A stretch of DNA of 25,774 nucleotides from the IMG/VR virus record IMGVR_UViG_3300031539_000280, positions 1 to 25,774 of that record. One strand, given 5' to 3'. A program made the translations under genes and the position numbers. The notes below the pieces were generated by a model. That model was not told where the DNA came from, ran no database searches, and worked only from the letters and a program-made list of their open reading frames with translations. The first letter of the stretch is position 1. Each line of letters begins with the position of its first letter. Source of the stretch: a virus. Positions 4,524 through 11,049 of this stretch are shown here, piece after piece.

Positions 4524-4928
4524 TTAGGTTGAAATGTCCGTAATTAATCCATTCTTAAAAACCATTGTAATGTCGACGCCCAGATTATCTTGGAAATTCA
4601 ACGACCCCGAATACCCCGTTGTGCCGTCTACGCTTTTGTAATTGGTTAAAGGTTGGACATGCTCTGCGTTTACGTCGTCTGCAAGTACCAATTTACCCGC
4701 ATCTGATATACTGGCAACTTCCGCCCCTGTGGAATCCAAAATAATAAATGCTTCTGATCCGTCGTTGGTCGCCGCCTTGATCGTTTGCTTCTTTAGAAAC
4801 GTATTTTCTTCAGTGATATTAGCCGTTTTTGCGGTGTTGCTGTTAGCTTTAGTAAATGCCGTTCTTGCTGGATCCCCAGTCATGTCGTCCGGGTTCGTCC
4901 CTATGTCTACTTGATCGAATGCGCTCAT
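4524..4928 (-). CDS. Short tail-fibre-like protein
   Basis: 134 residues from the ATG at 4928. An in-frame ATG 30 bases further upstream would run into the gp48-like gene and adds a poor N-terminus (DSRSNLIII). The sequence MSAFDQVDIGTNPDDMTGD, with TAFTKANSNT, is the fibre-like N-terminus often found in phage appendage proteins, which place a double set of DxxxD and A.TKANxN motifs before the shaft. The rest is beta-rich with Gly and Asn turns. The following 169-residue gene is probably its partner. The role in adsorption is inferred from position after gp48 and from composition. Confidence 0.6.
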   Translation of the reverse strand: MSAFDQVDIGTNPDDMTGDPARTAFTKANSNTAKTANITEENTFLKKQTIKAATNDGSEAFIILDSTGAEVASISDAGKLVLADDVNAEHVQPLTNYKSVDGTTGYSGSLNFQDNLGVDITMVFKNGLITDIST

Positions 4929-4936
4929 AATTATAA

Positions 4937-6529
4937 TTAAATTTGATCGGCTGTCCACACGGTGCTGTCCGCAGTTAACACGGTGCTATCGGCGGAATTA
5001 CCGGATAAGTTTCTAAATTTTACAAATAAATACCCTGCCGTTTGTGCAGGTTTGAGCCGTAACATAAGCTCTCTAAATTCGTTTTTCCTTTTTTCGTCTA
5101 CAGCAACGATAGTAGGGAAGGGGTCGCCACTTATAAACCATGTAGCCCTTAAATTCGTGGTGCTGCCAAAATCAAAACCAGCATCTTTGACTGGATCAAT
5201 GTAATTGGCTAACTTCTCAGCGTCACCACTGTCCACTTCTTGCTGCCCGTATGCCGCGCCTCCGTAACTAATATCGTTATAAATGGCACCTATAAACGCC
5301 ACAGGGACAAGAGGATCGCCGAATCGGTTTTCAGTAACAATCACATTTGTAAACCCCGCTTTGTGCAGTTCCGCTTGCAAGAAGGTATAATGTTGACGGG
5401 TTACGGCTTCCCCAGGGTATCGCATTTTCCTGGTTATGGCTATTTTACGAGTATCTAGATCTAAAGCAGATTGATTGTACAAACCGAGGGCTCTCTCCCA
5501 ATTTGTCGCATCCTCCGCGGTAAAATAATCATTATCTGGTAAAATGCTGTTTAAAAGTTCTTCGAAAATTGACCGCATCCTACTTTCCGAATATGCGAGC
5601 CCTGCGTGTACCCTCTCGAAAATGCTATTTCTTTTCAACCACCACGCGCGCCCTGTCGGGTAAAGTCTTTTAGTCAGTCGGACAAAAAGATCCGTGTAAA
5701 TAGGTATGTTTTCTTCTATCGTAATGTCGTAATTTTGTACATGGTGGTTACCGCTGTCAACCACGTATATGATGCCTTCGTTATAAACTACGTCGGTAGG
5801 GAATAAAAATCTATTTTGCCCGCCGCCAACGCCGCCGAAATATTCTACTAATACCCCCTCCGCTGTTAGAAATACAAGCCTTGAAGCCTGTTTATCTAAT
5901 ACCGTCAGAATGCCATTAGTCTCTTTTACCTGGGTAGGGTATTCCAGATCCGCAACAGATCGGCGAAGAAACGACCCCGCGGTCGTATAAAAATCTATAT
6001 GCTTGTTTGCGCTGTCAGCGATAACGATCTCGCCGTTTATCGTTGCAATTCCTTCAGGAAAACTGAAACCAGTTATTTGCGAAGTGTAAGTCCCTGCCGT
6101 CGTGTGCTGTTTAACCCTGTTGTTTTGTTTGTCGGCAATCCAGAGATACCCGTTTAAAACAGTTATGCCGATCGGATAACTAAAATTGTCATCCCCAGAT
6201 CCGGCACTACCAAACTGTGAGACATAAACGCCGTCTAAATCGTGAGTTTTAACTCTGTGGTTAGCGCTGTCTGTGATGTATAGATATGTGCCATCGCTCA
6301 CTATGTTTTCGGGAAAAAAGAAATTATCATTCCCCGCCCCGATTGCGCCAAAACTAGATACAAAAGTTCCGCCCAATTCATGTTTTTTAATGCGGTGGTT
6401 TTGCTTGTCCACTACATACATGTTATCGCCTACGATGCACGCCCCTGTAGGGTACTCGAATTGATCATCTCCAGATCCACGTGTCCCGAACTCAGAATTA
6501 TATAATAAAATTACGTCTATTCCCGCCAT
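4937..6529 (-). CDS. NHL beta-propeller fused to gp48/DUF2313-like baseplate protein
   Basis: 530 residues in two parts. Residues about 10-275 are six NHL repeats; each has a (F/L)xYP or (F/L)xFP entry and a core beginning with Asp at 41, 87, 133, 172, 212 and 258 (DKQNHR, DSANHR, DKQNNR, DSANKH, DKQASR, DSGNHH). Residues about 278-530 match the DUF2313/gp48 wedge family: VRLTKRLYPTGRAWWL, a helical SRMRSIFEELLNSILPDN, then LGLYNQSALDLDTRK and RYPGEAVTRQHY. In Mu, gp48 completes the baseplate after gp47. The propeller is an extra N-terminal domain not found in Mu. It may be surface-exposed and bind glycans or a host receptor, but this is inference. The start overlaps the gp47-like stop by one base. 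Confidence 0.85.
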   Translation of the reverse strand: MAGIDVILLYNSEFGTRGSGDDQFEYPTGACIVGDNMYVVDKQNHRIKKHELGGTFVSSFGAIGAGNDNFFFPENIVSDGTYLYITDSANHRVKTHDLDGVYVSQFGSAGSGDDNFSYPIGITVLNGYLWIADKQNNRVKQHTTAGTYTSQITGFSFPEGIATINGEIVIADSANKHIDFYTTAGSFLRRSVADLEYPTQVKETNGILTVLDKQASRLVFLTAEGVLVEYFGGVGGGQNRFLFPTDVVYNEGIIYVVDSGNHHVQNYDITIEENIPIYTDLFVRLTKRLYPTGRAWWLKRNSIFERVHAGLAYSESRMRSIFEELLNSILPDNDYFTAEDATNWERALGLYNQSALDLDTRKIAITRKMRYPGEAVTRQHYTFLQAELHKAGFTNVIVTENRFGDPLVPVAFIGAIYNDISYGGAAYGQQEVDSGDAEKLANYIDPVKDAGFDFGSTTNLRATWFISGDPFPTIVAVDEKRKNEFRELMLRLKPAQTAGYLFVKFRNLSGNSADSTVLTADSTVWTADQI

Positions 6530-7707: not shown

Positions 7708-8168
7708 AATAACACATTGATTATAGCTTCATTTCGGGTGCCATCCCATAACAATTTTATTTTTATCGACTCTTTGCCCGGCTCTTGCAAAGTTACGTAT
7801 AATTCTAATTTATTCACGCCGGCGACCTCGGAATTTAACGAAATATCTGCATATTCTTTTAAATAATCTAGATCCTGTGCTGCCGCTGCTTCCAGTTTAG
7901 CCCGTCCGGCGCTGTTAATCGTAACCTCTGAAAGTGCCCTCTCAAAGGAACTATTAAACTGCGTTTCTTCTGATAATAAAACGTTGCCCCACCAGTCGGA
8001 TCTGGTATCCAATTCGTCAAGCGCCAGAGAGGTACTTTGCTCTAAATTACCCCCGAAAAGGGCTAAATACACTTGATTTGCGAGCCCGTTAGTGAGCGAA
8101 AGATCATCATTCACAAGCGTAAACTCTCCCCCTGATCCTTCTTCGTAAATTAATACGTCTATTGCCAT
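7704..8168 (-). CDS. Baseplate wedge protein, Mu gp46/gp25-like
   Basis: 154 residues. It contains the gp46 marker DELDTRSDWWGNVLL (DxRxxWWG), preceded by a DLSLTNGLANQVYLALFGG segment and followed by a helical ERALSEVTINSAGRAKLEAA stretch. Homologues (Mu gp46, T4 gp25) join the sheath ring to the baseplate wedge. It sits between the tape measure gene, overlapping its stop by 10 bases, and the gp47-like gene. In Mu, genes 43-45 lie between these, so the module order has changed here. Confidence 0.85.
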   Translation of the reverse strand: MAIDVLIYEEGSGGEFTLVNDDLSLTNGLANQVYLALFGGNLEQSTSLALDELDTRSDWWGNVLLSEETQFNSSFERALSEVTINSAGRAKLEAAAAQDLDYLKEYADISLNSEVAGVNKLELYVTLQEPGKESIKIKLLWDGTRNEAIINVLL

Positions 8169-9961
8169 CCTATTGTTTTAGATAAATTAACGTTAGCCCC
8201 TTGTACCTTAGTTACCTCTGTAAGCCCTTTACTATCGTTTACATTTATGTCTACCTTGCTGTTATTGGTAGTTGTTTTATTTATCTGGTTGCTGATCGCT
8301 TTGTTGCTCTCTGCTTCCGGGGCCCCTGTGGTGATCCCCGCCGCTTCAAGTTTTGCTTTGATTCCCGCCTCTATGTCCGTCACGGCGCTATCTCCGAAAA
8401 TAGAGTCCATTAGGACCCCTAAATATTCGAAAGCCTCGGTAATTGCGGTAACTGATCCGCGTATGAAGTTCGCAAGGCCGCTGTCAGAAGTGGCGATCCA
8501 TTCGACTAGCTGCCCCCATTTTTCGCTCAACCAGTCGAAAACCATGCCGAGTGTCTGGAATAGTTCTATAAATGGCCCCAAAGAAAAACGTATAAATTTA
8601 GCGAATCCACTGTCCGAGGTTTTAACCCAATTAACTATGTCCTCCCAATAAATGATCAATAGTGCAATAACACCGATTAATATAAGTATGGCCGCCACGA
8701 TCCACGTGATAGGGGAGGCGTACATTACTGCGTTAACCACTAACATGACCACTTTAAACGCCGCAAAGGCCGCAGTCAACCCCATAACGACGGGTATAAT
8801 CGTACCCATATTGTCTGCGAGAAAACCAAGCACAGATTTAAGGATCTTAAGTCCTTCATTATTAGAGTTCGTACTCGTTACCGAGTTTTTAAAACTAGCG
8901 GTCAGTTCGTCCCACTTTCCCGAGAGGGTGTTTGTGTTTATCGCTGCTTGATCTACCGCGGTATTTGTCCCGGTAACCGCTTTCGTGTAGTCTTCTACTT
9001 TGGCGGTATTGTTTAAAAGTACTTGCCCAGCGATAACGTTTTCACTCCCAAATACTTGAGATACTGCCGTCGCATCACCCGCGATCTTCGACAGTTCTGC
9101 CAATCTTTTAGAAACCGGGACCGTTTTATCTGAAACAAGGTCGAGATCTACCCCGAATCTATTTAACTGGTTTAATGCGTTCTTAGGTAATACTTTTATA
9201 GTTGCCATTTTAAGCAAGACATTACGTAAGCTTGTGCCTGCTTCCGCCCCTTTTATTGTTTTCTCCGCGAGGGTTTCGATTAGCCCGACCGACTCCTCTA
9301 AAGATACACCTGTCGAGTTCGCCACCGCTCCAAATTTCTTCATCGACTCTGTAATGTCCGAAACTGGTGCAGATCCCGCTTGTGATCCTGCCGCTAAGGT
9401 GTTCATTACCCTGGCCGACTCGTCCGCTGTCAGATTGAACTGATTAAGCGTGCCTGTTAAATTTTCAGCGGATACGGCGAGATCCGCCCCTGTGGCTTTT
9501 GAAAGTATAATACTCGCTTCCGTAACTTTTGCCAGCGCTTCGGCGTCGGCTAAAAGTTCAGGTTTTGCGGACCCGACGATCTCGAAAGCTTTTGCGACGT
9601 CCCCGGCGAATTTCTTTTGACTCTTAGAAACCGCGTCGATCTGAGTTTGGAAGGCTTCGAAGTCCTTACCTGTCACCCCTGTGATCGCGGACAAACTCGC
9701 TAAATTCTTTTCGAGGTCTACATTTGCAGACAGTAACATCATACCAACCGCAGCCGCGCCCATCGCGATCCCGAGTTGCCCGAGCATTCCCGTAGCTTTT
9801 TTAAATGATTGCCCGAGACGCCTTGCCGCTCTGTCAACACGTGCAAAAGTGGTAACCGCTGATCTGCCGAAGTTCTTGACTCCCGCCGTCATGCCCCGGA
9901 CTACTTTTGTAAGCCCGTCGACCGCTTTAAACTCTGTCTTTACTATTAAACTCTTTGCCAT
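8159..9961 (-). CDS. Tail tape measure protein
   Basis: 600 residues. It starts with a short basic region, then helical repeats. Around residues 85-290 is the TP901-type tape measure core with NLASLSAITGVTGKDF, VSAENLTGTLNQFNLTADES and GVSLEESVGLIETLAEKTI. Roughly residues 370-440 are strongly hydrophobic (several possible membrane segments such as VMGLTAAFAAFKVVMLVVNA), as expected for a protein that enters the membrane during injection. A tandem motif (TSDSGFAKFIRFSLGPF, then TSDSGLANFIRGSVTAI) is repeated afterwards. The rule of about 0.15 nm per residue implies a tail of about 90 nm. It directly follows the chaperone and its -1 extension. Confidence 0.88.
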   Translation of the reverse strand: MAKSLIVKTEFKAVDGLTKVVRGMTAGVKNFGRSAVTTFARVDRAARRLGQSFKKATGMLGQLGIAMGAAAVGMMLLSANVDLEKNLASLSAITGVTGKDFEAFQTQIDAVSKSQKKFAGDVAKAFEIVGSAKPELLADAEALAKVTEASIILSKATGADLAVSAENLTGTLNQFNLTADESARVMNTLAAGSQAGSAPVSDITESMKKFGAVANSTGVSLEESVGLIETLAEKTIKGAEAGTSLRNVLLKMATIKVLPKNALNQLNRFGVDLDLVSDKTVPVSKRLAELSKIAGDATAVSQVFGSENVIAGQVLLNNTAKVEDYTKAVTGTNTAVDQAAINTNTLSGKWDELTASFKNSVTSTNSNNEGLKILKSVLGFLADNMGTIIPVVMGLTAAFAAFKVVMLVVNAVMYASPITWIVAAILILIGVIALLIIYWEDIVNWVKTSDSGFAKFIRFSLGPFIELFQTLGMVFDWLSEKWGQLVEWIATSDSGLANFIRGSVTAITEAFEYLGVLMDSIFGDSAVTDIEAGIKAKLEAAGITTGAPEAESNKAISNQINKTTTNNSKVDINVNDSKGLTEVTKVQGANVNLSKTIGWQ

Positions 9962-9962
9962 T

Positions 9963-10537
9963 TTATAAATTAGTTAGACCGCTTTTTTTTATGCCTTCCA
10001 AATAAGATTTTGCCCGTTTTTCCCAGAAAAATAGCCCATAAATTGTGTTGTCTTCTAAGTACAATTTCTCAACGTCCCAAATCGTCCACTTATAAACGTC
10101 GACTATCAAAGCTATTGCGGGGTATATGCCCTCTATGTTTAACGTGGTAAAAAAAAAGCGCTGATCTTGCCTATCTTTGTGAAATCCTCCGCGTCTAATC
10201 CCGCCAAAAGCCCGCTATTAACCCCCGTTAATGCTGCGAGCATACGCCTTGCGAGCTCCACATCATTTTTGGCGCCGCCTGTATACTTTTCGATATCTTT
10301 TACCGTGAACCTTCTATTTTTAAAAACTATTTTCTCAAGCAGTTCGGCACCCTTCTCCAGAGGTGTTTCTAAATTGTAAGTTATTTCGTCCCCGATCTGT
10401 AAATACCCGAACTCGATAAGCTGGACGATGTCCTCCTTTTCATCCTTCAGTTTTTCTTGTTTTAATTCACTTAATTTTAAGATCTCCGTGAATTTCACGT
10501 AGTCATTTTCTGCCGTTTCAATATCTACTTTTGCCAT
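9963..10537 (-). CDS. Predicted -1 frameshift fusion (G-T type chaperone)
   Basis: If the ribosome slips back one base on T TTT TTA (bases 10154-10148 on the minus strand), reading continues with ACC at 10148-10146 and stays open for 61 codons to a TAA at 9965-9963. The product would be about 191 residues (130 plus 61). The -1 part has no ATG of its own and ends two bases before the tape measure ATG. It begins TTLNIEGIYPAIALIVDV and contains two tryptophan-rich helices (YKWTIWDVEKLY and FFWEKRAKSYLE). T TTT TTA is the HIV-1 gag-pol heptamer, and P2 E/E' uses T TTT TTG at the same gene position. Confidence 0.75.
10112..10157 (-). promoter_or_regulatory. Slippery heptamer with possible downstream stem
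   Basis: The minus strand has nine T followed by A, which includes T TTT TTA. Immediately downstream, CCAC (10147-10144) can pair with GTGG further along, and TAAAC with GTTTA, giving 4 and 5 base pairs with a small internal loop. A smaller GGG/CCC hairpin (GGGCATATACCC) lies inside. The larger stem extends beyond this interval to about 10085. The pairing was found by eye and its spacing from the heptamer is shorter than usual, so the stimulator role is uncertain; the heptamer is clear. Confidence 0.5.
10139..10537 (-). CDS. Tail assembly chaperone, Mu gp41 / P2 E-like (zero-frame product)
   Basis: 132 residues between the tube gene and the tape measure gene, the conserved place for tail assembly chaperones. 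Residues about 55-125 match the Mu gp41/P2 E family: ETPLEKGAELLEKIVFKNRR, then DIEKYTGGAKNDVELARRML, then GLLAGLDAEDFTKIGKIS. The 3' end carries a run of nine T (10149-10157) that reads GCT TTT TTT TTA and then stops after CCA CGT. Chaperones of this group bind the tape measure protein while the tube assembles, and a longer form is made by -1 frameshifting. Confidence 0.8.
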   Translation of the reverse strand: MAKVDIETAENDYVKFTEILKLSELKQEKLKDEKEDIVQLIEFGYLQIGDEITYNLETPLEKGAELLEKIVFKNRRFTVKDIEKYTGGAKNDVELARRMLAALTGVNSGLLAGLDAEDFTKIGKISAFFLPR

Positions 10538-10638: not shown

Positions 10639-11049
10639 TTAATCTAAACGCTCCAATTTATTGAACGCTATCTTAACCGTGATCAACGCAGTGTTAACGT
10701 TGCCTTGTATGTCGCCGACTGGTTTGCCTTTTCCGCCCCAAATAGCCCCTGAGATATTGGTGATCGTCCAGTCCGCAAGGTTCGGATTTCCAGCTAAGTC
10801 TTTCAATTTGGTAAGTTCGTCCTGATCGATCATGTCCCACGCCATTGGCGGGGTCTCGAAAGACCCTCTCGTATAGTTCATTTGATCGAGCATTATACCG
10901 TTACCTGTGACGCTGTTTGCGTCATCGTTAGATCTTCTTCCCCCTGGATCTACGGTTCCGTCCTCCCCTGCTTTGAAGAAAAAAGATCCGCTCCCTAAAG
11001 TGGGGTGATTGTACGTCATCTCGATAGTATCTCCGCCTGTGTAGCTCAT
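10639..11049 (-). CDS. Tail tube protein
   Basis: 136 residues, between the sheath and chaperone genes as in Mu L-M-G order. The sequence is beta-rich with a conserved-looking SYTGGDTIEMTYNHPTLG start, SFFFKAGEDG, and SFETPPMAWDMIDQDELTKL near the middle, ending VKIAFNKLERLD. Tube proteins of this type (Mu gpM) polymerise inside the sheath. No sheath-specific features are seen. The call combines size, composition and position; a direct motif match is weaker than for the sheath. Confidence 0.7.
   Translation of the reverse strand: MSYTGGDTIEMTYNHPTLGSGSFFFKAGEDGTVDPGGRRSNDDANSVTGNGIMLDQMNYTRGSFETPPMAWDMIDQDELTKLKDLAGNPNLADWTITNISGAIWGGKGKPVGDIQGNVNTALITVKIAFNKLERLD

Follow-up and report, generated by a model that had tools for sequence, protein, structure and literature searches.

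The tail assembly chaperone gene of this virus very probably yields two proteins from a single start, the longer one by a -1 ribosomal slip on the heptamer T_TTT_TTA close to the end of the gene. As far as sequence can tell, this programmed frame change is real, well conserved and of a well known kind. The window, by which is meant the whole 25,774-base stretch of the virus record, carries the chaperone, its extension, the tape measure and the tail tube genes on the minus strand. The 0-frame product (10139-10537, minus strand), the equivalent of gpG or gpE, has 132 amino acid residues; it matches the Pfam family Phage_TAC_7 at better than the family cut-off (E 7.9e-7) and phrog_4648 over its full length (E 1.2e-7). 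The gene is flanked by those for the tail tube protein (10639-11049, minus strand; phrog_4699, E 1.8e-32), which precedes it and specifies the expected partner of the extension, and the 600-residue tape measure protein (8159-9961, minus strand; phrog_28, E 5.7e-61; PhageMin_Tail, E 1.2e-28), which follows it. This is the position occupied by P2 E/E' and lambda G/GT, as the first-pass annotation had stated.

The tail genes run in the order sheath (phrog_165), tube, chaperone, tape measure (phrog_28) and baseplate proteins. The earlier description of the virus as Mu-like holds for these genes only, the head genes being lambda-type (GpA terminase, lambda-family portal, capsid protein E and S49 protease). 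The host is likely a member of the Bacteroidota, since the closest sheaths among named phages (44-45% identity) belong to Flavobacterium and Cellulophaga phages and prophage relatives were found in Allomuricauda, Christiangramia and one Bacteroidetes MAG. A further tail gene (4937-6529, minus strand) weakly matches a Mu gp48-like tail protein and has an NHL-type beta-propeller fused to its N-terminus, possibly a surface-binding domain.

Between the chaperone and the tape measure lies a gap of 177 bases, as originally claimed, and the hidden -1 frame described there is present in every particular: 61 codons plus TAA (9963-10148, minus strand), no ATG, and a stop codon (9965-9963) separated by one A from the tape measure ATG (9961). 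The frame, the putative gpT or E' equivalent, starts with ACC at 10148 and its product is TTLNIEGIYPAIALIVDVYKWTIWDVEKLYLEDNTIYGLFFWEKRAKSYLEGIKKSGLTNL. It has no start of its own and overlaps the end of the chaperone; its TTG codons lie solely within the conserved domain. When the 186-base stretch was shuffled with its dinucleotides preserved, 252 of 20,000 sequences (1.3%) were open for 60 codons in this frame. The single-sequence signal is thus modest, and the proof has to be comparative. The extension of the window matches phrog_5697 (E 0.003), and its structure model (pLDDT 79) predicts four short helices. A fold search against the PDB returned no significant match, and among viral structures the best match was an unnamed 61-residue protein (E 0.34).

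Single-protein searches of viral contigs with the chaperone, tape measure or terminase found no relatives, and a tblastn search of named phages with the chaperone as query yielded insignificant matches only; relatives were found via the sheath, followed by sheath alignment. Profiles of the chaperone and of the extension were then used for a systematic scan, which recovered 76 loci (67 distinct sites) possessing both. At every one of these 76, where both parts are readable, the extension domain lies in a different frame from the chaperone. Counted by distinct site, the frame is -1 at 62/67 and +1/-2 at 5/67, with not a single in-frame fusion. As regards the second frame, the conservation check proposed with the first-pass annotation is thereby answered in its favor. 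Loci lacking a detected pair were truncated contigs, the P2 stretch, in which the profile missed the E chaperone, and gammaproteobacterial phages; in eight relatives of the last kind the -1 frame is open at the equivalent place, their extensions being too divergent for the profile. Eleven of 19 extensions match phrog_5697, with a best E-value of 2.2e-39.

The nearest relative, L003, shares 57% identity over the fused protein. Its chaperone ends in AGC GCT TTT TTT TTA CCG AGA TAA, and its -1 frame runs directly to the tape measure ATG. Differences between the two extension frames are concentrated at the third codon position (0.39, 0.27 and 0.59 for the three positions), leaving the protein conserved, and extension dN/dS is well below 1 in all pairs for which dS could be estimated. 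The frequency of open shuffles gives some room to the view that the frame is open by chance, or is the remnant of a decayed or indel-split chaperone gene; conservation in all relatives examined and purifying selection in both frames make that view hardly credible.

A second possibility is that a small gene of its own encodes the extension, with translation beginning inside the overlap or by re-initiation, and a separate CDS is indeed annotated in Cellulophaga phage phiSM, Flavobacterium phage V156 and an Oceanospirillum phage. Against this, at most loci, including the window, no start codon whatever is found upstream of the conserved extension domain, the slip site is strongly phased, and the P2 counterpart is a proven fusion (PMC3091744); we regard a separate gene as very improbable. 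Conservation, together with the likeness of the extension profile to P2 E', strongly supports the proposal that the hidden frame is fused to the chaperone by a -1 shift.

The 3'-end of the chaperone gene reads GCT TTT TTT TTA CCA CGT TAA. It contains a T9 run (10157-10149) followed by an A at 10148, and the heptamer T_TTT_TTA (10148-10154, minus strand) lies in the X_XXY_YYZ phase of the 0 frame. The heptamer ends 9 bases ahead of the end of the 0-frame stop codon TAA (10139-10141, minus strand), which is three codons past the slip site. A T_TTT in this phase within the last seven codons occurs in 62 of 67 related chaperones and in 72 of 547 control ORFs (13%), the controls being the other long ORFs from the same loci; the p-value (5e-41) overstates independence because the sequences are related by descent and the sites share ancestry, although the contrast is large all the same. 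A full TTTTTTN near the stop is found in 23/67 chaperones and 0/547 control ORFs. With TTTTTT(A/G/T/C) in about a third of the relatives, the site is less novel than the first-pass annotation proposed. Six relatives (L005, L006 and L009-L012) have the arrangement of the window with T_TTT_TT followed by G, A, T, C, C and G, respectively. In Flavobacterium-type phages the commonest site is GTT TTT, with the stop within one or two codons after it. Five relatives (L042, L047, L075, L093 and L096) keep both frames without T_TTT, their sites being CTT TTG, GTT TTC or TTC CTG; since T_TTT is absent there, the mechanism may differ.

The length of the T run raises the question of whether the frame is changed during transcription, RNA polymerase adding one U on T9 so that normal translation then gives the fusion. 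Slippage on nine A/T is efficient in vivo (PMC5009743), and a run of about nine is what the window has. L003, L006 and L041 also have T9 and L005 has T8, these forming one clade with the window (support 100/99). In four of its five members the hairpin signal that other relatives show downstream is missing. With runs this unusually long and the hairpin mostly absent, polymerase slippage could contribute in this clade. Long runs are not a feature of the family at large, however: 49/67 sites have T5-T6, too short for ordinary slippage, yet both frames are kept, and within the clade itself L005 has T8 only. Moreover, the T run has a conserved codon phase, for which slippage by RNA polymerase has no need. 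We consider transcriptional slippage unlikely as the explanation, and given the conserved phase and the T5-T6 runs of most relatives, a -1 slip by the ribosome is preferred.

The two routes predict different junctions. A ribosomal two-tRNA slip should give mostly Leu, ISAFFLTTLNIEGIYPAIALIVDVYK (ISAFFLTT...), and at the HIV site the junction residue arising from ribosomal slip is reported to be 70-80% Leu (PMC5009743). An extra U would give Phe only, ISAFFFTTLNIEGIYPAIALIVDVYK (ISAFFFTT...), although Phe is also expected as a minor ribosomal product.

The first-pass annotation drew a weak stem directly after the slip site (10086-10147, minus strand), pairing CCAC (10147-10144) with GTGG (10089-10086) and TAAAC (10141-10137) with GTTTA (10097-10093). 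This stem can form, and it is the minimum free energy (MFE) structure when 62-70 nt are folded. In the form drawn, its energy is -4.5 kcal/mol compared with an MFE of -10.2 for the same stretch, the 75-nt window downstream is no more stable than shuffled sequence (z about 0.1), and the 5' arm is absent in L003. We consequently rejected it as a stimulator, and the suggested folding of the downstream bases revealed no stable structure in the window beyond that of its shuffles.

The family as a whole behaves differently: over the 75 nt downstream the mean z is -2.86, against -0.38 in control windows, and 67% versus 10% fall below -2. The window, L005 and L006 have no hairpin signal and L003 has little (z -1.0), whereas L041, of the same clade, has one (z -3.7). 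A consensus stem computed over 21 hairpin-bearing relatives retained four pairs only and no compensatory change, so the relatives' hairpin rests on folding energy and not on covariation; the invariant bases of the hairpin region also encode conserved residues. In L053, L079, L014, L090, L056, L092 and others a strong predicted hairpin, often GGTGG/CCACC, follows weak T5 slip sites. A trade-off between a strong heptamer and a hairpin is weakly suggested (p 0.025, relatedness uncorrected), and T-run length against hairpin z gave p 0.08.

We surmise that most ribosomes would stop at the TAA and release the 132-residue chaperone. A minority, holding tRNA-Phe in the P site and tRNA-Leu in the A site, would slip back by one base on T_TTT_TTA and lengthen the chain by 61 residues, to a fusion of about 191. 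If the two forms act as lambda gpG/gpGT and P2 gpE/gpE+E' do, the short one would coat the tape measure protein and the long one, which would be rare, would recruit tube subunits through its extension, so that the slip rate would set the ratio of the two for tail assembly. Against such a slip, U_UUU_UUA proved far less liable to shifting in E. coli than A_AAA_AAG (PMC5009743), and folding of the window predicts no stable element after the site that would raise the rate.

The five relatives with the extension in the +1/-2 frame are Flavobacterium phage FL-1 (L015, 6340-6548) and the contigs L076, L078, L094 and L106. Their site is (G/A)TT TTT TC(A/G) TA(A/G); the close neighbors L077 and L088 share this site but are -1. 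Two changes on the tree are required to account for this distribution, and a single sequencing error is unlikely to lie behind it, since the +1/-2 relatives come from several samples. A Mu-type -2 shift was rejected for the window, the extension of which is -1, the +1/-2 geometry being that of these five relatives only.

In the named records the extension is either annotated as a hypothetical protein of its own that begins at a TTG (V156 and phiSM) or left out (FCL-2 and FL-1); the annotations and loci checked were L014 6867-7088, L013 6930-7115, L112 (FCL-2) 4918-5166 and L015. None of the named relatives checked carries a fusion annotation, and no paper on the frameshift in Flavobacterium phages was found in a literature search that omits most subscription journals. 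Because these records miss the extension or call it a separate hypothetical protein, they can be corrected. The TTTTTTG used by P2 is one base away from the site of the window (PMC3091744), which also makes the latter less novel than first proposed. A textbook case of recoding is extended to many contractile-tail phages of Bacteroidota type, including Ficleduovirus and prophages of Flavobacteriaceae, and the family offers a natural comparison, on one homologous gene, of slip-site strength, downstream hairpin and shift direction. It is conceivable, if rather improbable, that one family reaches the fusion by different routes: mostly a hairpin-aided -1 slip, +1/-2 in one lineage and transcriptional slippage in the clade of the window. 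If so, tail assembly would be what stays constant while the means of decoding varies, as is the case for dnaX.

The closest parallel is phage P2, in which TTTTTTG serves as the -1 slip site for making E and E+E', with no RNA structure detected (PMC3091744); the fusion is annotated in the P2 record, and reading its sequence confirmed the slip site and frame. An hhalign comparison of the extension profile with P2 E' gave a probability of 90% (P 1.5e-6), against P 0.41 for an unrelated control, and the Pfam family Phage_P2_GpE matched extensions weakly (best E 0.031, in 3 members). Both systems have the same chaperone Pfam family, gene position, -1 direction and T_TTT_TT(G/A) codon phase; in both, the slip site lies within a ...(G/A)F(F)L peptide, the extension has the pattern hydrophobic - W - L - W, and clear RNA structure is lacking. 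They differ in the last base of the heptamer (A in the window, G in P2), in run length (T9 and T6), in their low sequence identity, in the probable Bacteroidota host and in the fusion being unannotated in the named relatives examined. The proteins of phrog_5697 and phrog_4648, from Cellulophaga and Flavobacterium phages, correspond to the two frames of the window but are individual entries with function unknown and not one frameshift product. Among phages -1, -2 and +1 shifts are each known, and the Mu chaperone shifts by -2 (PMC5009743); Mu gp41 and the window share Phage_TAC_7, which covers E, 41 and 14, and a similar tail gene order, but differ in the size of the shift. Phage lambda makes a short and a -1 extended chaperone, G and GT, from one start, with the genes between those for tube and tape measure (PMC5009743). 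The window has this two-form layout, with a different chaperone family and a contractile rather than flexible tail. Its assignment to the classical G/GT and E/E+E' kind of chaperone frameshift is well supported by the similarity to P2 E', the two conserved frames, the phased site and the gene order.
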